From Lacipirellula parvula (GTDB taxonomy: Bacteria; Planctomycetota; Planctomycetia; Pirellulales; Lacipirellulaceae): 64,000 nucleotides of DNA. The stretch lies in NCBI RefSeq assembly GCF_009177095.1, contig NZ_AP021861.1, positions 4,260,501 through 4,324,500 of the forward strand, read 5' to 3'. A program made the position numbers and the translations under genes. Below the pieces are notes generated by a model that was not told the origin of the DNA, ran no database searches, and saw only the letters and a list, made by a program, of their open reading frames with translations. This document shows positions 693 through 47,098 of the stretch, in pieces. Numbering within the stretch: position 1 is the first letter of the stretch; every line of letters begins with the position of its first letter.

Positions 693-727
693 AATTAAAA
701 ATGAGGGCTAGTTAACGGCCAGCCCTC
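693..727 (-). terminator. Terminator-like hairpin ending the large RNA
   Basis: The minus strand reads GAGGGCT, an 11-nt loop, AGCCCTC, then a U-rich ATTTTTAATT tail. This is a 7-bp stem typical of intrinsic termination. It sits between the structured RNA and the start codon at 671, so the RNA could be a discrete transcript or the hairpin could attenuate the downstream gene. Confidence 0.55.
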
Positions 728-2046
728 GATGCCAAAATCTTTCAGTGAAACAGCTGCGAAAGAAGCTCGGGTGGAGTTCTTTCACGGAAGTTTGAATAAG
801 CACTTCCGATTGCAGCTGTCGCGTAACGCCAGCAAAAGCCCGCAGACTTGAGTTCTCTGCGAGAACCTCCTTTCTCGGCGCCCATTCGGGGCGGCCGAAC
901 TGTATTCCAAGTTCGACCGCCCCAATTTATAGGCGTACCGCAAGAACTAACCTTCGGTGGCACTCGTCGTGCTGAACATACACGTCGACTGTCCACCGCC
1001 AATTGCTGCCACAGGACGCTCCTTCTCCCGAAGAAGCCTCGTGAAGCCGCTATACCTCCGACCACGGAAAACAGCAGCCGCAGGCTGTCCGCATGGGACC
1101 GCCTTAAGCCACCTTGATCTTCTGTCTGGCACCATGCCAGTCAGCCCTTTCGTCGTCGCTAATGTGCCCGGCACCACCCGTATGCACGCGAGCGGGCTTC
1201 GACTGCCTTGCCGAAGACACCGTCCGAAACAGACGAGGCTCCCGCCTCGACCGCTTTCGGCTTTCTACTCAGGCCACACTCCCTCACTACGGCGTTTCAA
1301 TCACCTGACTGATCAAGGCCAGGCACCGGGAACCACCCCGGCAGCCGCAGCGATTCCTGCGTTAGTCATGCACTTCGATTCTCAAGTCACGTGGCTATCG
1401 GGTGTTATCCCGAGGGCTCACTTAGCTCTATGGCCGGGCTTCCGCCACGGCATAGTTTCCGTAGTCCGACGACTACGATTTCAGGGGGCAGAACACAGAA
1501 GCTCCTCCCTTACCCATGAGCTAAGGCTCTTCGCCGTCAGCGATTCCCGATCGGGAATTTGTCTGACCTATTCGGCGACGTCTCTTGAGACTCTGACCGG
1601 TAAGCCCTCTCGGGCCTTTCATGGTAGAGCTATTCACCGTGGGTTTTTTCGACCCATCGCCGGACGCGATCAAACGTCCGATCCCGTTTATTGCTAAACG
1701 AGAGCTCCCCACACCGGCGCATGTTGAACGAACCCTTTCAGGTCACGAACCCCATGGGCGGATTTGCGGTTCATAAGACCGCTCACCAGCTTTGAAACAT
1801 GACAGCTCCAACGGGACTTTCCCGTCGGAACAATTTCCGCATCGCCCTCATTCCGAAGACTACGCTATTGGATAGAACGCTGAGATTACTCCACTGCGAT
1901 ACAAAGGCAGTGGGATTAATTCAGTGAGCCTCCATCGAACGAAGCGAGCGTGTCTCCACGCACTTCGCTCTACTGGCGAAGCGTTTGACAGGCGGTTAAC
2001 CCTGTCCCCTTAGCGAGCTGGTAGGCTCGTTTACCGGGTACGCTTC
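693..2046 (-). ncRNA. Large structured non-coding RNA candidate, about 1.35 kb
   Basis: No convincing protein is encoded here. The region is packed with hairpins: 852-866, 888-923 (13 bp), 1126-1140, 1428-1455, 1460-1477 (7 bp), 1543-1558, 1685-1700, 1808-1828, 1891-1913 and 1940-1967. A three-way-junction shape is closed by GAAGCGT/ACGCTTC (1978-1984 with 2040-2046). Strand comes from wobble pairs: the stems at 888-923 and 1808-1828 are complete with G-U pairs only as minus-strand RNA and have C-A mismatches on the plus strand. The hairpin at 1685-1700 presents a GCAA (GNRA) tetraloop only on the minus strand. The minus-strand 3' end is a hairpin with a U-rich tail. I could not match it to rRNA, RNase P, tmRNA or a group II domain V. 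The 5' boundary is inferred from the first closed stem. Confidence 0.6.
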
Positions 2047-2335
2047 CCAAACAGAAGATCTCAAGTCAAAGCGTTTGCATCGTTGACGATCGCGGGACCT
2101 ATCCACCGTCCCACATGGGGCGAGTCTAGCGCAGTTCAAAACGCTACTGAATCTTTAGGTGAGGCGAGATGGAGGTTTTCAGAGCCCTCGTCGACTCAGA
2201 ACTCTCATACATCATCTCCTCCGCCATCTAATTGGCTCCCTCGCACCATGCGACTGCCTCAATAGTTCACCCAACTTTACAATGCGGTTCCGGCATGCTA
2301 CTCGACCGAAGTTCATTTTAACTCCAAAGATCGAC

Positions 2336-3658
2336 ATGCCATTTAGTTCACCTTTTGGGCCATGGCGACCCGCCGCTAGGGTCAACTATGCGTGCTTCAG
2401 CTGGACTGGCCCTAAAAAGCACTTCGATTCTCCAGCAAGAGAGCGCCTATTTTGGTTGTGCAGGATTCGCTGGGGCGCATTTGCCGGTCATTTCCTGTTC
2501 ATCGCCGTTGCATTTTACATTCTGAATCTCTCTTTGAGATTGACTCCGTTCATTCTCGTCCAGGCCGCACTCGCTTTGACGAATCTCGGACTCCATCTCT
2601 CACTTCGCCACCATATTGCACATCTAGAACGGCTAAGCGCCTGCATCCTGACTCTCGATGTCTTGTTGCTAACTGTTCTGCTTACGTCATACGGGGGCTA
2701 TGCGAATCCCTTCAGCATGATGTACTTGGTGCACGTGGTCTTAGCCTCGCTACTTCTTGGAAACGTCGGTACGTGGGGCATTGCGACCCTCTCCGGTATC
2801 TCGTACGGAAGTCTCTTTATGTGGTATCTCCCCCTCCCTGGGATGCATATGCATCACGCCGAGAGTTCGACCACCTTTGATCTTCATCTTCATGGCATGC
2901 TCGTAGCATTCATACTGATCGCGTGCCTCATCGCTGGATTTATTTCGCGCATGCGCCGCTCAGTCGAACAGAGTGAAAGAGAACTCACCGCGATGCGAAG
3001 CAACGAGGAGCGGTTAATCGCACTGACGCAGCTAGCAGCAGGCGTTGCACACGAGCTTGGCACGCCGCTGGGGTCCGCCATGATAGTTGCATCCGAATTG
3101 AGAGCTTCAATTGATCAGATGAGCAGCCGTGATGTCGCCGACGAACTCGACATCATGTTGACAGAGTTAACACGTTGTCGAACTATTTTAGGCAGAATGC
3201 GTGCTGAGTCAGGCACTCTCGCCTCTCAGTCCAATACGGATTGCACAGTCGAAGACCTTTTGAAATCCGCCAAAGCCCTCTTTCCCACTCGTCCAATTTC
3301 GCTATCTAGCCCAGACCGCACCGCCATTGTCTCAATCCCTTTCGATTCCGTCTTACGGTCGCTATCAGCTTTGATCTCAAACGCCATAGATGCGACAAGT
3401 TCCGGAGGTCGAGTCTCGCTCACAGTTTTCGCACGACCGAGATGGATGGAGATCCTGGTTGCCGACGATGGTCCGGGAATGGACCACTTAACTCTGAAGC
3501 GCGCCGGAGAACCGTTCTTCACCACCAAAGACCCAGGACGTGGTACCGGACTGGGACTTTTCCTATGCCGAATGTTTGCTACCCGTGCGGGAGGGAATCT
3601 TCAGCTTTCCTCGAAACCAGGTCACGGCACGGTCGCGATCCTAACTATTCCGCAATAG
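2336..3658 (+). CDS. regB: RegB/PrrB-type redox sensor histidine kinase
   Basis: Membrane histidine kinase. About six hydrophobic segments fill the N-terminal 200 residues and include GGYANPF, matching the quinone-site motif GGxxNPF of RegB. The H-box is HELGTPLG. It is followed by LTRCRTILGRM, which resembles the RegB redox box with its reactive Cys. The N and G boxes (NAIDAT, DDGPGM, GRGTGLGL) complete the ATPase domain at the C-terminus. In the known family it autophosphorylates in response to quinone redox state and passes phosphate to RegA, the next gene, 3 bp away. The frame is open from 2159; I chose the ATG at 2336 because it leaves a normal short cytoplasmic tail before TM1. The ATG at 2282 is possible. 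Confidence 0.85.
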   Translation: MPFSSPFGPWRPAARVNYACFSWTGPKKHFDSPARERLFWLCRIRWGAFAGHFLFIAVAFYILNLSLRLTPFILVQAALALTNLGLHLSLRHHIAHLERLSACILTLDVLLLTVLLTSYGGYANPFSMMYLVHVVLASLLLGNVGTWGIATLSGISYGSLFMWYLPLPGMHMHHAESSTTFDLHLHGMLVAFILIACLIAGFISRMRRSVEQSERELTAMRSNEERLIALTQLAAGVAHELGTPLGSAMIVASELRASIDQMSSRDVADELDIMLTELTRCRTILGRMRAESGTLASQSNTDCTVEDLLKSAKALFPTRPISLSSPDRTAIVSIPFDSVLRSLSALISNAIDATSSGGRVSLTVFARPRWMEILVADDGPGMDHLTLKRAGEPFFTTKDPGRGTGLGLFLCRMFATRAGGNLQLSSKPGHGTVAILTIPQ

Positions 3659-3661
3659 TCT

Positions 3662-4198
3662 ATGGAACACCGGAAACAATTCGACCTGCTGATCGTTGAT
3701 GACGATGATCCATTCCGCGAACTAATGATTAAAGCATTTACTCGACGGGGACTTTCAGCGATCGGCGCAAATTGCGTAACGCATGCCATCGCTTTGTGTG
3801 ATGACATAATTCCGAGTAAGGCGATTCTCGACCTTCGAATGCCAGGTCCGTCAGGACTTGTGCTTGTCGAGTTCCTAAAGAACAAGTTCCCAGAAATTCA
3901 GATCGTGATCCTTACGGCATTTGGAAGCATCGTGTCGACTGAAGCCGCCATTAAGCAGGGAGCTTCTGCCTATCTCATAAAACCGTGCAATATATCTGAC
4001 GTATTGGCCGCGTTTGAGCCATCCTCTCAACAAAGCGATGTCCCGGTTGACTTTCCATCAATCGCACAAGTTGAGTGGGATTACATACAGCGTGTACTCC
4101 GCGACTGCGGCGGTAACGTGACTCGAACTGCGCAAGTCTTGAATCTCGACCGAAGATCGCTCCAGCGACGGCTCGCTAACCCACCGAATCTAAAGTGA
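3662..4198 (+). CDS. regA: RegA/PrrA-type response regulator
   Basis: Response regulator of 178 residues. The receiver has the acidic pocket DDDD (residues 13-16), phosphoacceptor Asp57 in LDLRMPG, a T/A switch in ILTAFGS and Lys in IKPC. The C-terminal 45 residues form a Fis-type helix-turn-helix (NVTRTAQVLNLDRRSLQRRL), the arrangement of RegA/ActR/PrrA. It directly follows the RegB-like kinase with a 3-bp gap, so the two are one operon. In the known family, phosphorylated RegA controls respiratory and redox genes. Targets here are unknown. A small hairpin at 4206-4221 follows the stop. Confidence 0.88.
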   Translation: MEHRKQFDLLIVDDDDPFRELMIKAFTRRGLSAIGANCVTHAIALCDDIIPSKAILDLRMPGPSGLVLVEFLKNKFPEIQIVILTAFGSIVSTEAAIKQGASAYLIKPCNISDVLAAFEPSSQQSDVPVDFPSIAQVEWDYIQRVLRDCGGNVTRTAQVLNLDRRSLQRRLANPPNLK

Positions 4199-5485: not shown

Positions 5486-6865
5486 CTAAGACACACACAG
5501 CATTCGATCCAGCTCCTGATCGATAATTGTGTTTCGGTAGCCCGTAGTTAGAGCTTCAGAACCGGATTCAAGCGCCCGCTCCCATCCACTAAGGACAAAT
5601 GAATCAGCGTGCTCGAAGGCAAGCTTCTCGATTGCTGCCTTCTCTGAAACTGATAGTCCCTTCCAATAGGCTCGTCGCGACTCGCGTTTTCTGTCTTCAA
5701 CAGTCAGTTGGATCTCGCGAGGCTTTAAGACTTCCTTCGCTTCTAGTTTCGATGCCGGGCTGACGGAGTAGTCGGCCCTGATCGCTCTCACCAAGTACCC
5801 GCCACCATTTTTGATGGCCAAGCGCTTCTCTTTTGGAAGCTGGTCGAAAGCCGCAATCTGCCTTTCAATCTGACCAGCGGAAAACTCAGTCGCGATTTCC
5901 TCAGCGACTGTTCGCGTAACACCACGCTCAACTAACTTCGCTGCTGATCTACCTAGTCCCTTTTCTTCGGCCACCGCGATTTGCTTTTCACTTTTCTCTG
6001 CGATGACGATCCAATTTCCTGGACCACGTTTCACGAACCGCTCGTGGCGTGACATTGGCTTAATGAAATGGATTCGCTCCAACTCCTGAAATGCGGGTTC
6101 AAGCTTCCGCTTTAGCTGGCCTGTATCGTAGCTCCGGCTGAGGCCTAGATGCTCACAGGCGAACACGCGGATATCAAACTCCCATCGTCGCTTGTGATAG
6201 AAGCGTTTATCGAGAAATCGATAGGCTTGTCGCGCCGCAGCGCCGTCTAACTGGAAATAGACTTCGAGGTTCAACTTCTTGATGTAGTTTGCCGCAAAGC
6301 TCGCGAAGATTGTTCCGTTCCAAGTGAGGGACGAAAGTGGTTGCTCTCCCGCCCCAACCGACTCCCTCCCGCGAAGATCGACCGATTCCAAAATGTGAAA
6401 CGTGCGATTGCGCCAGCTCTTGCCTTTTAGATCCCACCACGCGCGATTGTAGAAAAGCGTGACGCTCGCAAGCACGTTCAGCGAATGTTCGAGCCGCCGA
6501 TACGATTTCCCGCCGTCATCCCATTTCAAAAACTTCACCAGCTCATATCGCGTGAAGTGGACAGTCGGTTCGCGAAACGAATTTCGGCATTTCGTTAGAT
6601 GGATGAGGGCCAGCAGCACATCGTTGTCGCGTGCAGTCGGCAGTCCGAATTGATCTGAGCCTGAGATCGTGAGCTTGCGATTGACTTTCTGCTTCGCTCC
6701 CTCGTCCCAGACCTGGTCTTCAAATGAAAATGTTTTCTGTCCCTGAGGCACTCGATTCGCAATTGCGGCAAGCGGGAACTCGGCAAGGTTCAACTCGTCG
6801 CGACCATCGGTCAGATCGAAATTCCACAGCGGCTTCCAAGTCTCTTCTCTTAGCTGCTCTTCCAT
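5486..6865 (-). CDS. repA: Plasmid replication initiator, RepA-like
   Basis: Predicted 459-residue initiator starting MEEQLREETWKPLWNFDL. The N-terminal part has the features of RPA/RepA initiators: the DELNLAEFPLAAI entry segment, DNDVLLALIHL, TRYELVKFLKWDDGGKSYRRL and a winged-helix region with RAWWDLKGKSW. A second winged helix follows (KRRWEFDIRVFACEHLGLSRSYD), and the C-terminal 170 residues are charged and helical. Such proteins bind iterons and open the plasmid origin. Iterons lie immediately upstream of the start, and parA is divergent on the far side, which is a standard plasmid core. The frame stays open to 6940; I chose the ATG at 6865 because the extra N-terminus looks unlike the family. 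Confidence 0.75.
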   Translation of the reverse strand: MEEQLREETWKPLWNFDLTDGRDELNLAEFPLAAIANRVPQGQKTFSFEDQVWDEGAKQKVNRKLTISGSDQFGLPTARDNDVLLALIHLTKCRNSFREPTVHFTRYELVKFLKWDDGGKSYRRLEHSLNVLASVTLFYNRAWWDLKGKSWRNRTFHILESVDLRGRESVGAGEQPLSSLTWNGTIFASFAANYIKKLNLEVYFQLDGAAARQAYRFLDKRFYHKRRWEFDIRVFACEHLGLSRSYDTGQLKRKLEPAFQELERIHFIKPMSRHERFVKRGPGNWIVIAEKSEKQIAVAEEKGLGRSAAKLVERGVTRTVAEEIATEFSAGQIERQIAAFDQLPKEKRLAIKNGGGYLVRAIRADYSVSPASKLEAKEVLKPREIQLTVEDRKRESRRAYWKGLSVSEKAAIEKLAFEHADSFVLSGWERALESGSEALTTGYRNTIIDQELDRMLCVS

Positions 6866-6990
6866 CCCCTTTCCCGCTTCGTAAATAAAACACCACCAGC
6901 TTGGCCCGTGTTGTTGATCTTTTCTTATAGTTAATAACAAGAGTTACCTCTCGCTAACCTCGCGCTAGTGCTGGCGAATCGCTTCGCTTT

Positions 6991-7511: not shown

Positions 7512-7682
7512 GTCAGCATGTTTGCAAGTTGGTTTGCTTGATGGCTGGTTTGCTGACAAGGCCGCAAGCGTGTGTGCAGGTCAGTAAGTAAGGCCGCACG
7601 TCAGATGGTCTGCACGTATGCCTGTCCGTAACTAAGCAAGTAATCTTGTTTGCATAAATACTATCTTGTCAGCACGTCTGCA
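7512..7682 (+). repeat. Repeats upstream of parA, possible parS site
   Basis: Three related 14-15-bp motifs, GTCAGCATGTTTGCA (7512), GTCTGCACGTATG (7608) and GTCAGCACGTCTGCA (7668), occur in the 190 bp before parA. Their place next to a parA/parB-like pair suggests a centromere or autoregulatory operator. The assignment rests on position and repetition only. Confidence 0.4.
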
Positions 7683-7702
7683 TGCGGGCTAGCGTTGTCC
7701 GC

Positions 7703-8389
7703 ATGATGATTGTCTTTGCAAACACGAAGGGCGGAGTAGGGAAGTCGACCCTCGCCGTCCACCTCGCCGTCTGGCTTTTCGACCGTGGGGCCAAGGTCGC
7801 ACTTCTCGACGTTGACCGGCAGCTCTCGGCACGGCAGTGGATCGAAGAAGTTGAGCCTCAAATTACAGCGCGCACAGCGGGCACGCCCGAAGATGTCCTC
7901 TCAGAAGCCCAGAGTTTGGCTGAGTCGCACGATTTCGTCATCGCCGATGGTCCGGGTGGTCTGAACGATTCGAGCCGCACACTTCTCATTCTGGCCGATC
8001 TCGCGATCTTTCCGATCTCGCCCTCGATACTCGATTTGCGGTCGGTAGCCGAAGCGACTCAGGCGCTGAAATATGCCCAGTCGATCAACGGTGGAAAAGT
8101 TCAAGGGCGACTCGTCCTGAACCGCATGCGAACGCGGGACAAAATCTCTCGCGAGATGGCAGAAGCGGCGCCGAGCCTCGGGCTCCAAGTGACGAAATCA
8201 CACATCCGCGACCTGCAACCGTACCGCGACGCCGCGCAACAAGGCACGGTCGTGACACGAATGGGGTACAAGGCAAAGGAAGCTGCCGCCGAACTGACGC
8301 AGCTCTTCGTTGAACTAATGACCGACAAACTTGCGTTCCTCGGAACAGAGGAACAGCCGAAAACAGGAAAGGTAGCAGCCAATGAATGA
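7703..8389 (+). CDS. parA: ParA-family partition ATPase
   Basis: Predicted 228-residue P-loop ATPase starting MMIVFANTKGGVGKST. The deviant Walker A motif KGGVGKST marks the ParA/MinD superfamily. DVDRQLSARQW is the Walker A' region and VIADGPGG is Walker B. Its short length without an N-terminal helix-turn-helix fits type Ib plasmid ParA. It separates plasmid copies together with a centromere-binding partner, here probably the overlapping next gene. ATG codons exist at 7682 and 7703; the second starts directly at the conserved beta strand. Confidence 0.85.
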   Translation: MMIVFANTKGGVGKSTLAVHLAVWLFDRGAKVALLDVDRQLSARQWIEEVEPQITARTAGTPEDVLSEAQSLAESHDFVIADGPGGLNDSSRTLLILADLAIFPISPSILDLRSVAEATQALKYAQSINGGKVQGRLVLNRMRTRDKISREMAEAAPSLGLQVTKSHIRDLQPYRDAAQQGTVVTRMGYKAKEAAAELTQLFVELMTDKLAFLGTEEQPKTGKVAANE

Positions 8390-22628: not shown

Positions 22629-22949
22629 TTGGACATATATCTCGGCCAGACTGCAAGAAAACTTCGCGATTCGTTGGGGTTAACTCAACGCGCGGCGGCC
22701 GACGCTCTGGACATTTCGTTCGTCCATCTGTGCAACATCGAGAAAAATCGAGCAGCGCCGTCACAGGCCTTGATCGATAAGTACCGCGAGCTTTGGGGCG
22801 TCGATCTGTACGTTCTCGCTTGGTGCTCAATGGGCGACAACGAGAAACTGCCGCAGGCAGTGAGGAAGTCGGCGGGTGAACTGGCGAAGGGATGGCAGCA
22901 GCACGTTGACTCGCTGATTAAGCAGCAACGATCGAAGGCCCATGGTTGA
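22629..22949 (+). CDS. XRE-family regulator of the retron-like operon
   Basis: 106 residues from a TTG start. The N-terminal half is a Cro/C1-type helix-turn-helix (LRDSLGLTQRAAADALDISFVHLCNIEKNRAAPSQ split across residues 10-45). The C-terminal half is a helical tail. The stop overlaps the start of the reverse transcriptase (TGATG), so expression is coupled. It may repress the operon or be the toxin or antitoxin part of the system, as in HTH-containing retron classes. Confidence 0.75.
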   Translation: MDIYLGQTARKLRDSLGLTQRAAADALDISFVHLCNIEKNRAAPSQALIDKYRELWGVDLYVLAWCSMGDNEKLPQAVRKSAGELAKGWQQHVDSLIKQQRSKAHG

Positions 22950-23944
22950 TGCTCAAGATACGACAGGTTAAGCATCTGGCCAGCGCGCTCAGCACGACGC
23001 CGGCTGAGATGGCTGCGGTGCTGAAATCTCCGGCCGACTTTTATGAAGAGTTAGAGCTGAGAGACCCCTCTCGGCCGGATAAACCACGCATCGTGGTGAA
23101 CGTGACCGGCGCGCTTCGGGCGCTCCAATCAAAACTCTACCGCCGCATTCTTTTGCCGAAGCTATCGCAATCAGCCCATAGTCACGGTGGTGTCAGCGGC
23201 CGTAGCATCAAGACCAACGTTGAACCCCACTTGGGTTCCAAGTTCGTGTTCAAGACGGACATCGCAAACTTTTATCCGAGCATTCACTTCAGGCGGGTCT
23301 ACAAGCTGTTCGTCGAAGACTTCGAGTGCTCCCCCGACGTTGCGAGCGTATGCACGAAGATTTCCACTTATCGGCACCACCTTGCGCTCGGCTTGATTTG
23401 CAGCCCCATGCTCGCAGATCAAGTGCTGAGGCGCGTCGATCGGCGGATCGGCGGTGCCTGCGCGGGTCTAGGACTTGTCTACACTCGCTACGTCGACGAC
23501 GTTGCTATCTCCGGTCCATTCAACATCGAGACAAGCGGACTTCCCCGTCTAGTTGAAGACATCTTGGCGAAAGATGGGTTCAAGGCGAACGCCGACAAGC
23601 ACCTGTTCGGGAGTTTGGCCGAGGACCTGTCAATCACGAGTCTCCGTGAGGTTCGGGGACATTTAGATGTTCGTCGCGAATACTTAGACGAGCTTGAACG
23701 GCAGATTGATGATGCCGCGAGCTTAGCTCGCGATGGTGAATTCATCGGTCCGTACTTCACATCGGAGCAAATTCTCGGCAGGGTTCGCTTTGTTTGCTGG
23801 GTGAATCCCGGCCGCCGCCGAAGTCTGATAAGTCGCTTCCGCACAGTGAAGTGGAAGAAGGCGAGGAAAGTCGCCAAGAGACGTGGTTACGAAGTCACCC
23901 GAAAGACGCTGACAAAACTTCCGCGAAGGGAAGAGCCAAGCTAA
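22949..23944 (+). CDS. Retron-type reverse transcriptase
   Basis: 331 residues, the usual retron RT length, with no maturase or endonuclease domain. Motifs run in order: HGGVSGRSIKTNVEPHLGSK contains TNVEPH, a form of the retron-specific NAxxH; FKTDIANFYPSI is motif A with catalytic Asp. GLICSPMLADQVLRRVDRRI matches the retron SPxLxNxxxxxxD region, and YTRYVDDVAISG is the YxDD active site. The C-terminal LSITSLREVRGHLDVRREYLDELERQI matches the retron VTG region in diverged form. It synthesises DNA from a structured RNA in known retrons and is usually an antiphage system. The TTG at 22946 is an alternative start. Confidence 0.85.
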   Translation: MLKIRQVKHLASALSTTPAEMAAVLKSPADFYEELELRDPSRPDKPRIVVNVTGALRALQSKLYRRILLPKLSQSAHSHGGVSGRSIKTNVEPHLGSKFVFKTDIANFYPSIHFRRVYKLFVEDFECSPDVASVCTKISTYRHHLALGLICSPMLADQVLRRVDRRIGGACAGLGLVYTRYVDDVAISGPFNIETSGLPRLVEDILAKDGFKANADKHLFGSLAEDLSITSLREVRGHLDVRREYLDELERQIDDAASLARDGEFIGPYFTSEQILGRVRFVCWVNPGRRRSLISRFRTVKWKKARKVAKRRGYEVTRKTLTKLPRREEPS

Positions 23945-25267: not shown

Positions 25268-25708
25268 TTGGAGATTTCCGTGTCTAATTGTGAGGGCAAC
25301 CAACCGAGCCATCGCGTCTGGGAATTCAAGGGCGACGGCCGCACCTGGATCGCATGGGCGGTCGGCCACGACCCACCCGAACCCACACCCGGCTCAGCCG
25401 CCTCGCGGGCGTTCGACTCGCTGACGCCGTGCAACGAGCTGGCCCCGAGTTCGATGCTCGACAAGGCCGCGGCGATCGCCTTGGCGAGGCTGATCAAGGG
25501 CATTCGACGCGGTCAGGGCTTGGAGGTCTTGGCCGGCCGGGCGTTTGGCGGAAGCGGCCCGATCCGACCGGCCGGCGGCTGCCGAAGCCTCAGGGCCTTG
25601 GCTCGAATGCTCGGCTGTTCGAGGCGGCAGGCGTCCAAATATGCCGGCTTTGACGATTATGACGGTCGCAGCGGTCGTAGTGGGTCTGATTATGACGATC
25701 GCCCCTAA
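25268..25708 (+). CDS. Hypothetical protein, divergent from the recombinase
   Basis: 146 residues from a TTG start, or from the GTG four codons later. A central segment (LRALARMLGCSRRQASKYAGF) has helix-turn-helix character near the C-terminus. The tail is Asp/Arg/Gly-rich. No family recognised. The following 281 bases (25709-25989) contain no gene I can support. Confidence 0.45.
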   Translation: MEISVSNCEGNQPSHRVWEFKGDGRTWIAWAVGHDPPEPTPGSAASRAFDSLTPCNELAPSSMLDKAAAIALARLIKGIRRGQGLEVLAGRAFGGSGPIRPAGGCRSLRALARMLGCSRRQASKYAGFDDYDGRSGRSGSDYDDRP

Positions 25709-25989
25709 AATTGGCCCGGCCTGAACAAATCCGTCAACCGCGCGTGAGACAGTACGCGGCTAGTAGCCTCAGGAAGGCCTCTGGCAGGCCCGTACGTACG
25801 TTCCGATAGCGAACGCGACTCAGGGAGGGGTGTTTTGCTACAGGCCATGCAAAACAGGATTACTCTCAATTCTTTTCCCATTTCGTGCAGCCAACTTGGG
25901 TTTTCAATCGCAATAAATGCGCCCCTGCTCTCCCGTGTGCGCCGTATTAACGGTGTCCCGAAACTAATTGCACCTAGAGAACTACATGA

Positions 25990-26706
25990 ATGCTGACCCT
26001 AGATGATCCCTGGACTGTCTACAGAAGCTATCGCGACTGCCCATGTCGATCGAATCGCCGCGCCCTCGTTGAGTCGATTGCCAGCAAGTGGCTGCCGGCG
26101 ACCGCGGGCAAGTTCCTAGCCAAGACGGGTTCGCTCGCGACGCCGGATCGATTCGAGGAACTGCTCGCGGCATCAATCCTGGCCGTCGTCGAGGGCGTCG
26201 ACAAGCTCACGAGAGCCTATGACGAGGTCCGCCATTTAAGGGCTGACGTTAATACGCTCGCCACGAAAGCAATGATCACGGCCGACGACGACGCGCGGCC
26301 AAGCGGTCTTGGGCCGACTGCGGCCGCGAAATACCAGCGGCGTCGCCGAGGGACCGAGGAAGCTAGGTCGACCGATCCTAAGGCGGTCAGCATCGATCCC
26401 GGCAATGAACCGCGCGATCGATCGCGCGGGAAGTCGAACGAGGAGTACGACTTTGCGCAGTGGGTTGAGGTCACTGCCGACGAGCAGGTCGAAAGTTGGA
26501 AGGAATGGGAAGCATTGGCGTATTTATCCCACCCCTTGTTCGCGACGGGCAAGCGAGGGCGGCCGAATATCGCCGCGATCGCACGACATCTGGGAACGAA
26601 CCCGGACACGCTCCGCGACCGCCTTAAGCGGCTCGGCCAGCGAGTCGCCGCGGCGTGCAACGATCCCGACCACCGAGAAATCTTGGAAAAGTTGCTGGAA
26701 TTCTGA
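25990..26706 (+). CDS. Helix-turn-helix protein of unknown family
   Basis: 238 residues starting MLTLDDPWTVYRSYRDCP. The middle is charged and disordered (RRRRGTEEARSTDPK, RDRSRGKSNEEYD). The C-terminal 70 residues end in a helix-turn-helix pattern (RGRPNIAAIARHLGTNPDTLRDRLKRL). This may be a sigma-like or replication regulator of the element, but no catalytic motif is visible. The gene is 338 bp upstream of the helicase gene. Confidence 0.5.
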   Translation: MLTLDDPWTVYRSYRDCPCRSNRRALVESIASKWLPATAGKFLAKTGSLATPDRFEELLAASILAVVEGVDKLTRAYDEVRHLRADVNTLATKAMITADDDARPSGLGPTAAAKYQRRRRGTEEARSTDPKAVSIDPGNEPRDRSRGKSNEEYDFAQWVEVTADEQVESWKEWEALAYLSHPLFATGKRGRPNIAAIARHLGTNPDTLRDRLKRLGQRVAAACNDPDHREILEKLLEF

Positions 26707-39485: not shown

Positions 39486-42005
39486 TTACTCGCGGCCAGC
39501 GGCGGCTTTCTTCATGCCCTCTTCAAGAGTTTTGATGTCATTAGGCGAAAGTTGTGGGCGGTCCACGTTCAGCGTCAACTTGTGAAGCTTGCCGGTGAAC
39601 GCGAACGGCGGCTGATAATCCGCATCGTTCACGCCAGTTAGCGTGTCGGAGCCAATGTCGAAGCTCTCGTCCCACTGGAGAATCATCGGTAGCGTCTTCT
39701 CCATGCGCTTCGTCGCGACCACCTTGCCATCCACCTTCAGTGTGCCGATGCCGGGTTGGCCGAGTCCGCTGAAGCTGTTGTAGACAAGCGTGCCAACGCC
39801 GATCCCCTCGTATTTGAAGTCGAACTCGACCGTGTGCTTGCCGGGCGCGAGCGCGTCAGGGCCTTCCCACTTGAGGCGTTCGAGGTCGAGCAAGTTCCAG
39901 AGGAATACCGGTTTCCCCTTAAGCAGGTAGAAGCCATAACCCGCAAAGCGCCCGCCCGAGGTCAGCAACATCCCTTCGGCGCCGCCAGCCGGTACCTCGA
40001 CGTCGGCGGAGATAGTGTAGCTGGTATTCAGCAGCACCGGCGAATCGCCCTGAGGCAGACCTACCATCGGGCGCGTATAGACGAACTCAGAGCGCCCGGC
40101 GGTGATGTTCGGCCGTGGCGCGATAATGCGCGCTGCCACTGACGCATCCAGCGGGAATACCTGATATTTCTTCGCCTCGGCGAGGAACTTGGCTTTGAGT
40201 TCTTTGACTTTGTCCGGGTATTTTGCCGCTAAGTCCTCCGACTGGGTGAAGTCCTTGTCCAGGTTGTAAAGTTGAAACTCTTGGTTATTGAGCGGGTCCG
40301 GGTTGGCCGCGCCAAACGCTTCCCATGGCGCCCGATCGACCTTCGTACTCATGAACCAGCCGTCGTCATACAACGCATACTGGCCCATCATTTCGAAATA
40401 CTGGGTCTTGTGTTGCGATGGAGCCTTGGCGTTGGCCGCGTCGAAGGTGTAGAGGAAGCTCGTCCCCTCGATCGGCTTTTGCTTGATGCCGTCAACCACA
40501 TCGGGCGCGGTGATTCCTGCGGCCTCAAGGATCGTCGGCGCCACGTCGATGACGTGCATGAACTGAGTGCGGAGGCCGCCCTTGTCCTTGATGCGCGCCG
40601 GCCACGACACGACCATGTTCTGGTTGACGCCGCCAAGTTGCGATGCATTCTGCTTGAACCAGGAGAACGGCGCATCGAACATCCAGGACCAGCCGGCCGA
40701 CATATGATTGTAGGTCTGCTCGGTGCCCCACACGTCATACCACTTCATTTGCACTTCGACCGCCATGTCGCTGACGCCGTTGAACCACGCGACTTCGTTC
40801 GGCGTGCCCATCGGGCCGCCCTCAGCGCTCGTGCCGTTGTCGCCATTGATGTAGATAATGAGCGTGTTGTCGAGCTTGCCCAAGTCCTCGAAGGCCTGGA
40901 CCACGCGTCCGATTTCGTGGTCGTTGTAGGCGACGTAGGCGGCGAAGACTTCGACTTGCTTGAGGTAGAGTTTCTGCTCCGCGGCCGTCAGTTGGTCCCA
41001 CTCCTTGAGCACGTCCTTCGGCCAAGGCGGCAGCACGGAGTCCTGCGGGATCACGCCCAGGCGCTTCTGGTTCTCGAAGATGCGTTCACGCACCTTGTTC
41101 CAGCCTTCGTCGAACAGCTTCATCTTGGTGATCTTGTCCACCCATTCCTTCGTCGGATGGTGCGGAGCATGCGAGGCGCCCGGCGCGTATTTGATGAAGA
41201 CCGGTTTGCTTGGATCGATCTGATGCATTCGCGTCATCCAGTCGATCGCTTCGTCCGCCATGCCGGTGATCAAGTTCCAGTCTTTCTTGCCCTTAAACGG
41301 ATAAATTTGAGTCGTATTCCGGAAAAGGTTTGGCTGCCACTGGTTGGCGTCGCCGCCGACGAACCCGTAGAAGTACTCGAAGCCCATGCCAGTCGGCCAC
41401 TGGGTGAATGGGCCGGACTGGCTCGCCTGAAAAGCAGGCGTGTTGTGGTTTTTGCCGAACCACGACGTGTTGTAACCGTTCTCGAGCAGGATGCGGCCGA
41501 TCGTGGCGTTGTCGACGCCAATGACGCTGTCGTAACCAGGGAAGCCCGTGGACTGCTCAGAGACCACGCCAAAACCGACCGAGTGATGGTTGCGGCCGGT
41601 GATCAGTGCGGCTCGCGTCGGCGAGCAGAGCGCCGTGGAGCACATGCGGTTGTACCGCAGCCCCTCCTTGGCCAAACGGTCCATCGTGGGCGTCGGAATC
41701 ACGCCGCCGAACGTGCTGGGCACACCGAAGCCGGCATCATCGGTGATGATCAGCAGCACATTGGGCGCGTCCTTCGGCGGCGCCACGCGTGGCGCCCACC
41801 AGGGCGTCGATTGCAAAGCGTCGTCCTTGATCACTCCGCCAAACTTGGGCGCTGGCGGCGGAAGCTGTTGGCCGTCAATGGTGGTCGTGGCACCCGGCGC
41901 GCCGAGCGTGCCGCTTGTTTCAATCGCTGCCTTCTCGCCGCGACTCAATTCCGAAAGCCCGCAAAATGCGGCCAAGAAAGCGGCCGCCCAAGATAGTTGA
42001 CGCAT
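39486..42005 (-). CDS. Arylsulfatase, secreted, 839 residues
   Basis: Signal peptide, then the sulfatase fold. Metal Asp pair in LLIITDDAGFG, then the formylglycine site C127 in LCSPTRAALITGR (CxPxR, with Cys the modified residue), KN in WFGKNHNTPAF and DNG in INGDNGTSAEGG. The C-terminal 200 residues form a beta-sandwich (AGRSEFVYTRPMVGLPQ, FKYEGIGVGTLVYN) found in the long arylsulfatase class. It hydrolyses sulfate esters after conversion of the Cys by a maturase encoded elsewhere. The frame is open to 42071. Substrate unknown. Confidence 0.88.
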   Translation of the reverse strand: MRQLSWAAAFLAAFCGLSELSRGEKAAIETSGTLGAPGATTTIDGQQLPPPAPKFGGVIKDDALQSTPWWAPRVAPPKDAPNVLLIITDDAGFGVPSTFGGVIPTPTMDRLAKEGLRYNRMCSTALCSPTRAALITGRNHHSVGFGVVSEQSTGFPGYDSVIGVDNATIGRILLENGYNTSWFGKNHNTPAFQASQSGPFTQWPTGMGFEYFYGFVGGDANQWQPNLFRNTTQIYPFKGKKDWNLITGMADEAIDWMTRMHQIDPSKPVFIKYAPGASHAPHHPTKEWVDKITKMKLFDEGWNKVRERIFENQKRLGVIPQDSVLPPWPKDVLKEWDQLTAAEQKLYLKQVEVFAAYVAYNDHEIGRVVQAFEDLGKLDNTLIIYINGDNGTSAEGGPMGTPNEVAWFNGVSDMAVEVQMKWYDVWGTEQTYNHMSAGWSWMFDAPFSWFKQNASQLGGVNQNMVVSWPARIKDKGGLRTQFMHVIDVAPTILEAAGITAPDVVDGIKQKPIEGTSFLYTFDAANAKAPSQHKTQYFEMMGQYALYDDGWFMSTKVDRAPWEAFGAANPDPLNNQEFQLYNLDKDFTQSEDLAAKYPDKVKELKAKFLAEAKKYQVFPLDASVAARIIAPRPNITAGRSEFVYTRPMVGLPQGDSPVLLNTSYTISADVEVPAGGAEGMLLTSGGRFAGYGFYLLKGKPVFLWNLLDLERLKWEGPDALAPGKHTVEFDFKYEGIGVGTLVYNSFSGLGQPGIGTLKVDGKVVATKRMEKTLPMILQWDESFDIGSDTLTGVNDADYQPPFAFTGKLHKLTLNVDRPQLSPNDIKTLEEGMKKAAAGRE

Positions 42006-42436
42006 CGCCGTTGCCCCGTCAGGAAATGAGAGTCGTACGCTGAGATAAAACGCCGCGACTGCAAGTTCCACATTGCCAAGACGTATTGTACTGAATCAAG
42101 GCCCGGGCAAAACCAAATTGCGCGAGACCCCGCGGCACGGGTTGAAATACTGCCAAATGCGAAAGACATGCCGAAGATCGGGAACTTGTCTGGGGAATGT
42201 GGGCTAATGCCTGCGTTCGTGGCGGTCCTCTCGTTGGCCGCACTCTCGCCGCCGCCTCGCTTGCATCTCAAGCGGACGATTTCTGGACGCTGCCGGGAAG
42301 TTGCGGCAATAGTAGTGCAGATCCTGCGCAGCAATGATGCGTTCAGCCGCCATATCACCGCCCAAATATTTATTTGAGTAGCGAATTCGACGGTGGCACT
42401 ATGACCAAACCTTTTGATGTTTAGGAGGTCCTCGCC

Positions 42437-45036: not shown

Positions 45037-45400
45037 GCAATGATTAGAGCAGACGCTAAGATTTAGGTCGTCCTACAATCACATTCGAACTTTCCGATTT
45101 GGCGGGCAGTCTTTTGGGACGCGTCCCTGGGCATAGGGACAAGTGCTTCCGCGTTTTATGCTGATGGTGCCGGATAGTCAGCGGAGGTACCGTCCGACAA
45201 AGGTTTCGTTAAAGTCAATCTAGCGATTGACCCTCCACTCGCAGCGAATTTGCGGAAAATTGGCCACTTGTAGCATCACGAATTTGGCGAAGGTAGAATC
45301 TGGGCGACGGTGCTCACCGCCGCCCTGCTGGATTGGGCTACGCTTCAGTTGGGGCTTTCTAGTCTCGGCCGACGATTCTTTTTTCCCGGAGGCATCACTG

Positions 45401-47098
45401 ATGCAACGCTGGCTCTTCACATTGTCCGCGGCATGGTTGCTGCTGGCGCAGACGGCACTCGCTCAAGAGGGCAAGAAGCCGAACATCCTCTTCATCATGG
45501 GCGACGACATCGGCTGGATGCAGCCGAGCTGTTATCACCGCGGGTTGATGGTCGGCGAAACGCCGAACATCGATCGCCTCGCCCGCGAAGGGGGGATGTT
45601 CATGACCTATTACGCGGAGTCGAGTTGCACGGCGGGCCGCTGTGCGTTCGTTACTGGCATGCATCCCTATCGCGCGGGCATGGTCCTGCCGCAGTTGCCG
45701 GGCGCGATTTCGTATCTGCGCCCCGGCACGCCTTGCATTGCCAAGTTCCTGTATGACCTCGGCTACAGCACAGGCGAGTTTGGTAAGAATCACCTCGGCG
45801 ATCATCCCGATTCGCTGCCGACGGCGCACGGCTTCCAGGAGTTCTGGGGCTACCTCTATCACTTGGATGCGATGCAGCAAGTGAGCTTCCCGGACATCAA
45901 TAGCAGCCCGGATAAGCAGGCCGTTGTGCCGCCCATGAAGATGATCCCAATTCCTGGCATTCCGCCGCATCCAGGTGAAATCGACCCGAAAGACGGCGTC
46001 TGTATGGCGGCCCCACGACCGGTGCTCTGGATGAAGTCGTCCGACGGGACGGCAAAGAATCAAAAAGGGACCGACGAAGGTCCGCTCACCCTGGAACGCT
46101 CCAAGACGGTCGACGAGGAGATCTCATCTCACGTCATCGACTGGCTTGATCGCAACGACCCCGAAAAGACCCAAAAGCCCTTCTTTTGCTATTACAATCC
46201 CGCCCGCATGCACGTCACCACCGTGCTGTCGAAAAAGTATGAAGACATGATCGGCACCGTCGGCGGCAAAGACTGGGGCGCCAATGAAGCCGGCATGAAG
46301 CAGATGGACGACAACATCGGCTACGTCCTCAAGAAGCTCGAAGACATGGGCGAACTCGACAACACCATCGTCGTGTTCACCACCGACAACGGCGCCGAGG
46401 TTCAGACCTTCCCGGACGGGGGCGTCACGCCGTTCAAAGCCGGGAAGTTGAGTACGTGGGAAGGCGGCATGCGCGCTCCGTGCGTCATTCGCTGGCCTGG
46501 GGTCGTCAAGCCAGGCACGATCTTCAAGGAGATGTTTTCGTCGCTAGACTGGCTGCCCACGTTGGTAGAACTAGCTGGCGGCCCCAAAGGGGAGGAACTG
46601 AACAAGCAGATCATGGAGGGCAAGTACGAAGGCATCGTGAAGACCAAGCTCGATGGCTTTAACCAGATCGACTATCTCACCGGAAAGGCTGAAAAATCGA
46701 ATCGCGACACCTTCTTCTACTACCAGGGCCGCCTCCCTTCGGCCGTACGCTACAAGAACTGGAAGTTCTACTACACCATGATGGGGTCCATGGGCACCGA
46801 TGCTCTCAACGCCCCCGTGACGTATCACTGGACGCAACTCCAGAACATCATGCGTGATCCGTTCGAGAACAACGTTGGGGCCGAGCAGAAAGGCGCGTTC
46901 TCAGTAGCAGGAGCCTTAGCTTCTCCAAGCACCGCGTATATTTATGACTGGAACCTCCTGCCCATCGGCCAGCTCCTTTGGGAAAAGGAACTCATGTCCT
47001 ATGTCGACTTCCCGCCCCTCCAGATGGCGGCGAGCTATAACCTCGAACAGGTCCTCCAGCAGGTGCGTGAGATGGGAGCGAAGCACCCAAGCGAGTAA
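45401..47098 (+). CDS. Arylsulfatase, secreted, 565 residues
   Basis: Starts MQRWLFTLSAAWLLLAQTALAQ, a signal peptide, with CCCGGAGG before the ATG. Metal Asp pair in FIMGDDIGWM. The modification site is Cys76 in CTAGRCAFVTG, a CxAxR variant of the usual CxPxR. KN in FGKNHLGDHP and TDNGAEVQTFPDGG follow. C-terminal domain is short. It belongs to a different subclass from the enzyme at 39486. Substrate unknown. A strong terminator separates it from the HAD gene. Confidence 0.88.
   Translation: MQRWLFTLSAAWLLLAQTALAQEGKKPNILFIMGDDIGWMQPSCYHRGLMVGETPNIDRLAREGGMFMTYYAESSCTAGRCAFVTGMHPYRAGMVLPQLPGAISYLRPGTPCIAKFLYDLGYSTGEFGKNHLGDHPDSLPTAHGFQEFWGYLYHLDAMQQVSFPDINSSPDKQAVVPPMKMIPIPGIPPHPGEIDPKDGVCMAAPRPVLWMKSSDGTAKNQKGTDEGPLTLERSKTVDEEISSHVIDWLDRNDPEKTQKPFFCYYNPARMHVTTVLSKKYEDMIGTVGGKDWGANEAGMKQMDDNIGYVLKKLEDMGELDNTIVVFTTDNGAEVQTFPDGGVTPFKAGKLSTWEGGMRAPCVIRWPGVVKPGTIFKEMFSSLDWLPTLVELAGGPKGEELNKQIMEGKYEGIVKTKLDGFNQIDYLTGKAEKSNRDTFFYYQGRLPSAVRYKNWKFYYTMMGSMGTDALNAPVTYHWTQLQNIMRDPFENNVGAEQKGAFSVAGALASPSTAYIYDWNLLPIGQLLWEKELMSYVDFPPLQMAASYNLEQVLQQVREMGAKHPSE

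Follow-up and report, generated by a model that had tools for sequence, protein, structure and literature searches.

What is the large folded RNA encoded on the minus strand between positions 693 and 2046 of a 64,000-nucleotide (nt) stretch of the Lacipirellula parvula genome (contig NZ_AP021861.1; hereafter the window)? The original prediction, made from the bare letters, had described it as a structured RNA of unrecognised class and possibly a new one. We have found that the class is a known one: the RNA is a circularly permuted (CP) group II ribozyme, and the idea of a new class had to be given up in the face of a match to group II domains 5 and 6 (D5-D6), of the splice-site motifs and of a cross-match between a covariance model of the family and the CP group II RNA of the plasmid pPNAP05. 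Immediately 3' of the RNA starts a gene coding for a protein distantly related to AcpG. Taken as a whole, the locus probably contains a back-splicing ribozyme together with a catalytically dead miniature maturase, carried by plasmid-like elements, the activity of this particular copy being predicted from its anatomy.

The D5-D6 match came from a focused Rfam search, i.e., a permissive scan of positions 600–2200 with 4227 families. RF00029, the group II D5-D6 model, was found at 1972–1867 on the minus strand with 45.6 bits (gathering score 40, E 2.3e-7). No other family reached its threshold, and there was no match to OLE, GOLLD, ROOL or any other giant RNA. The original prediction had seen neither a domain V nor a known class, and in both respects it was wrong; it had itself named strong similarity to the model of a known intron as a result that would speak against it, and this is what the search returned. 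D5 lies near the 5' end of the RNA because the ribozyme is circularly permuted, and is therefore missed if sought near the 3' end. A whole-window Rfam scan with fast filters at gathering thresholds reported nothing, and a hand-written regular expression for D5 had no match. The domain (1970–1937) reads GAGCGAAG-U-GCGUG-GAGA-CACGC-UCG-CUUCGUUC, with GAGC facing GUUC at its base, an asymmetric bulge, the AGC triad and a GAGA tetraloop at 1956–1953 (from RF00029 and the alignment A1 of our covariance model), and this tetraloop fits the GNRA loop that had been predicted for the minus strand only.

The sequence of the RNA (about 1.3 kb, minus strand) was detected by blastn in 29 of 147 genomes, its own included. 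The closest two relatives have 88% and 80% identity across about 1.5 kb and the others go down to about 59%; the one named DNA match was a plasmid of a planctomycete. In the best-matched relatives the conservation starts at about 2137–2104, upstream of 2046. The covarying ribozyme core extends approximately from 2060 to 1116, and positions 1115–697 form a 3' extension with one well-supported conserved hairpin (1050–1005), in which 91% of the cells pair and 15 of the 19 bp show double changes. The 3' end of the RNA is marked by a terminator-like hairpin followed by a run of U (727–693), found where it had been predicted. The large structured RNA is real, its proposed limits of 693–2046 being approximate. 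Only 11 of 29 homologues had such a terminator-like site no further than 150 nt from the start of the downstream protein, and we rejected on this count the candidate of a conserved attenuator before acpG.

A homologue alignment, which had been proposed as a check together with the original prediction, was carried out with 28 rows (36 strings without L038, L048, L032, L025, L060, L033, L034 and L057) and provided a consensus with long covarying helices by RNAalifold. In the 23-row core alignment A8 (the 28 without L051, L029, L054, L026 and L028) the same program found 240 consensus pairs, 190 of them with at least one compensatory double change. Here 94.8% of the cells pair, compared to a maximum of 72.6% in 200 shuffles, the cells with double changes are 1274 against a shuffle maximum of 427, and pairing falls to 34–40% when the partners are slid by 1–3 columns. 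The choice of the minus strand was also borne out. The core (2072–1105) folds at −425.1 kcal/mol (z −7.9 vs. 20 shuffles) on this strand and at −355.8 kcal/mol (z −6.4, again vs. 20 shuffles) on the plus strand, and the alignment fold is −284.9 vs. −188.8 for the opposite strand. The latter still has double changes in 155 of 192 pairs, because complementary strands behave so. We also considered that the plus strand could be coding (open reading frame, ORF, of 246 aa at 957–1694) and rejected it from stop-free lengths: in L039, the relative with 88% identity, no frame of the core stays free of stops for more than 96 aa, compared to 196 aa in the focal copy. Over 23 homologues this maximum ranges from 93 to 254 aa.

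The order of the domains is what makes the ribozyme permuted. D5-D6 (1970–1867) precede D1 (1803–1365), D2 (1353–1284, two hairpins) and D3 (1275–1143), the latter three delimited by covarying helices, whereas in a canonical intron D1 is at the 5' end and D5-D6 at the 3' end. A D4-like stem divided between both ends of the RNA completes the order D5-D6-D1-D2-D3-D4. In the 28-row alignment, a helix like the base of D4 has its 5' arm immediately 5' of D5 (1977–1972, paired with 1141–1136; 98% paired, with double changes in 5 of 6 pairs), and a 14-bp closing helix joins 2060–2047 with 1129–1116 (double changes in all 14 pairs, 78% of cells paired), so that both 3' arms fall within 1141–1116. These helices resemble a D4 stem whose tip has been opened, with the ends of the RNA placed there, and the ribozyme as a whole resembles a group II intron interrupted inside D4, the place of the protein gene in ordinary introns. 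Between the two 5' arms there is a hairpin, P2 (2029–2013), with a loop ACCA (2022–2019) complementary to the loop UGGU of D2 (1335–1332). The two loops are fully complementary in 20 of 23 rows, one of the variants being compensatory (ACUA:UAGU), as would agree with the P2-D2 pseudoknot published for CP RNAs; 143 of 2000 shuffles equal this, a weak test because both loops are nearly invariant.

The splice sites are reversed and internal. D6 (1934–1867, from RF00029 and RNAalifold) has a conserved internal loop and a bulged branch-point A at 1873, which is the seventh base back from the 3' splice site (1867|1866) and is invariant in 20 of 20 rows. The arrangement that follows is CCAAU|AGCGUAGUCUUCGGAAUGA|GGGCG, i.e., a 19-nt linker (1866–1848) and then the 5' splice site (cut 1848|1847) with the motif GGGCGAU at 1847–1841, of which GGGCGA is likewise invariant in 20 of 20 rows. 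By motif search, AU and GGGCGA separated by 15–82 nt were found in 31 of the 36 homologue strings. A canonical GUGYG 5' splice site near 1713, our first guess, was dropped, GGGCGAUGCGG being conserved at 1847. The linker ends with intron-binding site 1 (IBS1; CGGAAUG, 1855–1849), which can form seven pairs, three of them G-U, with UGUUCUG (1495–1489) in the exon-binding site 1 (EBS1) loop of D1 (1496–1489). In a scan of 26 rows (the 28 without L051 and L029) the D1 loop at 1496/1495 was the best column, in either register, for complementarity to the 3' end of the linker, a result reached by 3 of 500 and 0 of 500 shuffles. From this anatomy and from the CP RNAs that have been tested, we infer that A1873 would attack the downstream 5' splice site, positioned by the IBS1-EBS1 pairing, and that the freed 3' end would then attack the upstream 3' splice site. 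By this back-splicing a predicted RNA circle of 19 nt would leave and a branched RNA would stay.

The tested members are those of Roth et al. (2021; PMC8637638), who in the text consulted give for CP group II (“T-large”) RNAs the order D5-D6-D1-D2-D3-D4 and splice sites NU and GGGCG round a linker of 15–86 nt, and for five of them the production in vitro of a circle and a branched RNA. The same text reports no role for the ribozyme and describes AcpG as a frequent neighbour that is not universal, some CP RNAs being without it. We have built a covariance model, R1, from 20 relatives (the 28 rows without L046, L024, L027, L051, L054, L026, L028 and L029). Run on 21 sources, some of which are training loci, it matched 17 at E <1e-11, and two further matches were at chance level. 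The match to pPNAP05 of Polaromonas had 47.8 bits (E 3e-12), and our splice-site rule delimits on this plasmid a linker of 32 nt, equal to the length of the circle published for its RNA, one of those shown to be active (Roth et al., 2021, in the text consulted). R1 also matches a Planococcus plasmid, a Leptolyngbya plasmid, pK2D_1 and two copies on a Calothrix plasmid. In the latter the two CP RNAs (L060:1638–1777 and 3789–3919) have identical D5 and almost identical linkers, and there is one AcpG gene in the stretch. When 294 genomes drawn from the phylum were searched with R1, nine matched, including that of L. parvula; no such RNA was found in phage records.

The focal RNA shares with the described CP group II RNAs the domain order, the GGGCG and NU/AU sites, the short linker, the bulged A and internal loop of D6, the EBS1-IBS1 pairing, the residence in plasmids and the adjoining AcpG gene, to which a possible contact of the P2 and D2 loops, complementary here as there, can be added. 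It differs from them, as far as the consulted text of PMC8637638 goes, in several features. The A at the base of D5 pairs with U (GAGC with GUUC or GCUC), whereas it is called there apparently not Watson-Crick paired; the covarying closing helix that splits D4 is absent from that text; the focal family has a conserved 3' extension; and in each of the 39 paired loci AcpG lies downstream of the RNA on its own strand. With canonical bacterial group II introns (RF00029) it has in common D5-D6, D1-D3 and the splice-site motifs, and it is unlike them in its permuted order, in its reversed and internal splice sites and in having no protein gene inside. Besides Roth et al., our literature search found no paper that deals with AcpG or with CP group II RNAs of natural origin, judging by titles and abstract openings and with subscription journals mostly uncovered.

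Not all the results fall easily on the side of a CP group II ribozyme. R1 missed four of the 21 sources (L056, L025, L029 and L051), and the RNA of Thermus pTT8, a known member, was reached only with filters off (16.6 bits), this weak match falling on the strand and side given in the consulted text of PMC8637638. The EBS1-IBS1 pairing of the focal copy needs its three G-U pairs, and over the 26 rows the mean complementarity is 4.0–4.3 of 6. Could the RNA then be a giant noncoding class of its own, unrelated to introns, with a D5-D6 match due to chance? The empty whole-window Rfam scan at gathering thresholds and a free-standing RNA of about 1.3 kb with its own terminator-like end would agree with it. 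We nevertheless take this as extremely improbable, having ruled it out by the RF00029 match, the splice-site motif search (AU|GGGCG) and the match of R1 to the tested RNA of pPNAP05, to which the EBS1-IBS1 pairing and the order of D1-D3 can be added. Hardly any more credible is a canonical group II intron with its D5-D6 ending at 1867 and an unrelated structured RNA downstream, even if D5-D6 looks canonical and proteins with the maturase domain GIIM are found in 23 of 79 relatives. We rejected it because covarying helices connect sequence 5' of D5 with sequence 3' of D3 (1977–1972 with 1141–1136, 98% paired); besides, the AcpG gene is 3' of the RNA in 39 of 39 paired loci and the own genome has no GIIM match. 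A degenerate and inactive CP relic within an integrated plasmid is improbable too, if somewhat less so. Such remnants do exist, as illustrated by the third copy in the same genome, in which a deletion fuses the RNA to residue 76 of AcpG, and by genomes G004 and G022, that keep AcpG and have no R1 match. The focal copy, on the contrary, retains D5, the branch-point A, both splice sites, EBS1-IBS1, the covarying helices and an AcpG frame open over 245 aa.

The AcpG-like gene, also on the minus strand, starts at 671, 3' of the RNA, and runs past the edge of the window (671–3; complete in L036:6435–7172). Its product of 245 aa belongs to no family in Pfam or NCBIfam and had no match in PHROGs or PADLOC, and no relative was confirmed among IMG/VR viral contigs. 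By tblastn, AcpG-like proteins were found on seven plasmid records, four of them from Leptolyngbya boryana. In four plasmid records, one per organism, there was an unannotated gap of 1.3–1.7 kb before the AcpG gene. In all four gaps R1 detected a CP RNA. We collected 33 AcpG sequences, from which the alignments A2 (27 rows, without L054, L028, L027, L038, L030 and L031), A4 (23 rows, further without L057–L060) and A7 (22 of these, without L050, plus three from Thermus) were prepared. The Thermus AcpG is TTHC007 of pTT8, taken as the 259-aa ORF at 6164–6943 of NC_006463. The family is linked to it by hhalign (90.9%, E 1.1e-6, 170 columns), a direct BLASTP of the focal protein against it being not significant (E 0.28). 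When the A2 profile was run on the six-frame ORFs of eight records, six Thermus AcpG ORFs ranked directly after the Planococcus member used in the profile, with E of 1.3e-6, 9e-4, 9.8e-4, 0.0096 and 0.012, and of 2.6 for pTT8 itself. The resemblance to the Thermus protein consists of this distant homology and of the association with a CP group II RNA; unlike here, in Thermus the gene and the RNA are divergent. Three AcpG matches (G025:C66, G050:C80 at 25441–26097, and G041:C509) have one internal TGA, perhaps just the terminal stop.

RNA and protein tend to occur together. Among 147 relatives the RNA was present in 36, the protein in 37 and both in 29 (Fisher p 4.7e-17, with kinship ignored). 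At the level of loci, 39 of 56 RNAs (weak matches included) have the protein within 5 kb, in 39 of 39 cases downstream and on the same strand. RNA and AcpG distances are correlated (Mantel r 0.80, 0 of 2000 permutations, 20 loci), which we do not count as evidence because it is expected for linked genes. The association has its exceptions: the protein is missing in 7 of the 36 genomes with RNA and the RNA in 8 of the 37 with protein, 17 of the 56 RNA loci are unpaired (some of them weak matches or contig ends), and AcpG was not detected in 50 kb of pPNAP05 with the A2 profile on six-frame ORFs. In two loci (L051 of G004 and L029 of G022) AcpG is present and the 5' half of the RNA (D5-D6) was not found by R1; the RNA may be decaying there before the protein, or the arrangement may be split.

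What could such a protein do beside a ribozyme? In the consulted text of PMC8637638 no class of proteins is reported as homologous to AcpG. We modelled it with AlphaFold2 from 23 members (mean predicted local distance difference test, pLDDT, 89.6; predicted template modelling score, pTM, 0.80). With Foldseek against PDB the first three rows were a group II intron reverse transcriptase (RT) complex, a retron complex and the DRT2 RT, with unrelated proteins next. With VIA, 12 of 998 aligned chains had Z of at least 8, and the first 12 entries were group II-type RTs or spliceosome chains; the best 50 of the 998 rows (Z 6.7–10.2) were group II-type RTs, DRT RTs and spliceosome or U5 chains. Eight of the first nine rows, group II or G2L4 RTs, align over 157–188 residues with root mean square deviation (rmsd) 3.3–4.1 Å and Z 8.1–9.3 (for 8t2r_D, Z 9.3, rmsd 3.4 Å, 175 residues). 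The spliceosome chains align over about 208 residues with rmsd 5.3 Å; these and the U5 chains were taken as Prp8 from length and residue range, one of them, 4i43, being so titled. The single hhalign match to group II RTs places YLRYERFFLLL on FVRYADDFAVF of motif 5, and an adjacent Asp pair at this position was found in 0 of 27 AcpG members, i.e., none has a YADD. Judging from the model, AcpG is probably a shortened and catalytically dead group II maturase that kept the palm-thumb fold and lost the catalytic aspartates, its predicted fold being like those of group II RT/maturases and of the RT domain of Prp8. The catalytic aspartates have likewise been lost in the Prp8 RT domain. AcpG would then bind the ribozyme and fold or hold it as a maturase, as Prp8 does in the spliceosome. 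It departs from group II RT/maturases in its size (about 220 residues vs. at least 400), in the lack of YADD, in having a separate gene downstream of the RNA, not inside D4, and in the absence of significant sequence-profile similarity.

The opposite case is that the RNA is a true CP group II ribozyme and AcpG is no maturase, i.e., a plasmid protein such as a regulator or a replication accessory that shares with RTs only a common alpha/beta arrangement. Several observations are on its side. By sequence profile AcpG vs. seven group II RTs is not significant (hhalign E 0.41); no RT family (RVT_1, GIIM) was found in Pfam for the 27 members, nor in Pfam or NCBIfam for the focal protein, and the AcpG profile had two matches among PDB sequences, neither of them an RT. 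No Foldseek row reached E 0.001, the best having E 3e-3, TM-score 0.28 and rmsd 18.2. The first VIA row (8h2h_D, Z 10.2) has an rmsd of 13.9, and according to the note of the tool, models without clear relatives typically peak at Z 7–8. The model of the Thermus homologue is poor (pLDDT 70.5), without a clear fold, and its best row is a helical bundle of 60 residues; short bundles of this kind make up most of its rows and were not read as homology. Finally, some CP RNAs exist without AcpG (PMC8637638, in the text consulted). Against this, the best 50 VIA rows are all RT entries or spliceosome chains of Prp8 length, and the matched proteins are those that serve this class of RNA. In addition, the motif-5 register emerges independently from the sequence comparison, and of the rows of the Thermus model the four that align across more than 100 residues comprise a group II maturase (Z 7.1, rmsd 6.1) together with three viral RNA polymerases (Z 3.3–3.7). 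We regard the non-maturase alternative as unlikely, though deserving of much more weight than those raised above for the RNA, and a dead maturase as the better description of AcpG.

The surroundings are those of a plasmid. RepA (PF10134), a plasmid replication initiator, is encoded at 6940–5489 on the minus strand, and a ParA-type ATPase of plasmid partition at 7682–8386 on the plus strand, as would fit an RNA-AcpG pair that travels with plasmid-backbone genes (repA/parA). The L. parvula genome contains three of these RNAs, plus one chance-level match, and three AcpG proteins in matching positions. Two copies are about 3–4 kb from RepA genes, the second RepA being about 3 kb from the second RNA. 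The third (L038:3900–5400, plus strand) has D5-D6 and the splice sites intact and the deletion that runs the RNA into AcpG, and is near an ORF that by eye resembles the C-terminus of RepA. The two untruncated copies differ in EBS1 (GUGUUC vs. AGACUC), and we speculate that differing EBS1-IBS1 pairs would stop co-resident elements from acting on each other. A bolder proposal, which we consider doubtful, is that AcpG is a free-standing dead RT acting in trans on the permuted ribozyme, the pair being a minimal bacterial counterpart, maintained by plasmids, of Prp8 and the spliceosome RNA core. With AcpG bound and EBS1 to direct it, the branched product might cut or tag nucleic acids of foreign origin or of sister plasmids, and co-residents would then need different EBS1-IBS1.

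Other genes of the region can be described briefly. A histidine kinase and a Fis-type response regulator (2159–4198, plus strand) are divergent from the RNA and start close upstream of its conserved part. On the other side, a helix-turn-helix protein and then an IrrE-type peptidase (L036:5086–6430, plus strand) are convergent to acpG, and to the left of the window there is a cluster with an IetA-like AAA ATPase, a ThiF/JAB E1-like protein and an E2/multiubiquitin-like protein (L036:1007–4968, minus strand), a candidate ubiquitin-like or defence operon. The only RVT_1 match of the genome is within the window (22946–23941, plus strand) and scores best with the PADLOC models RT_VI, RT_III-A and RT_II-A, which we take to be retron types. 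As a supplier of maturase this RT was rejected on account of its best scores with RT_VI and similar models. Two sulfatases are encoded at 39489–42071 (minus strand) and 45227–47095 (plus strand).

The named plasmids extend the CP class to Planctomycetota (pK2D_1) and Cyanobacteriota (Leptolyngbya and Calothrix), phyla unnamed in the main text of PMC8637638, where Deinococcus-Thermus, Firmicutes and Proteobacteria appear and neither “planctomyc” nor “cyanobacter” occurs. The family, whose 39 paired loci all keep one order of RNA and protein, offers compact pairs for biochemistry and cryo-electron microscopy. The change of a dead RT into a separate maturase has been proposed for Prp8 in the ancestry of the spliceosome. 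The link of AcpG at the level of fold to group II maturases and Prp8 would, if true, provide a first testable function for this protein, that of a dead RT serving as a separate maturase.

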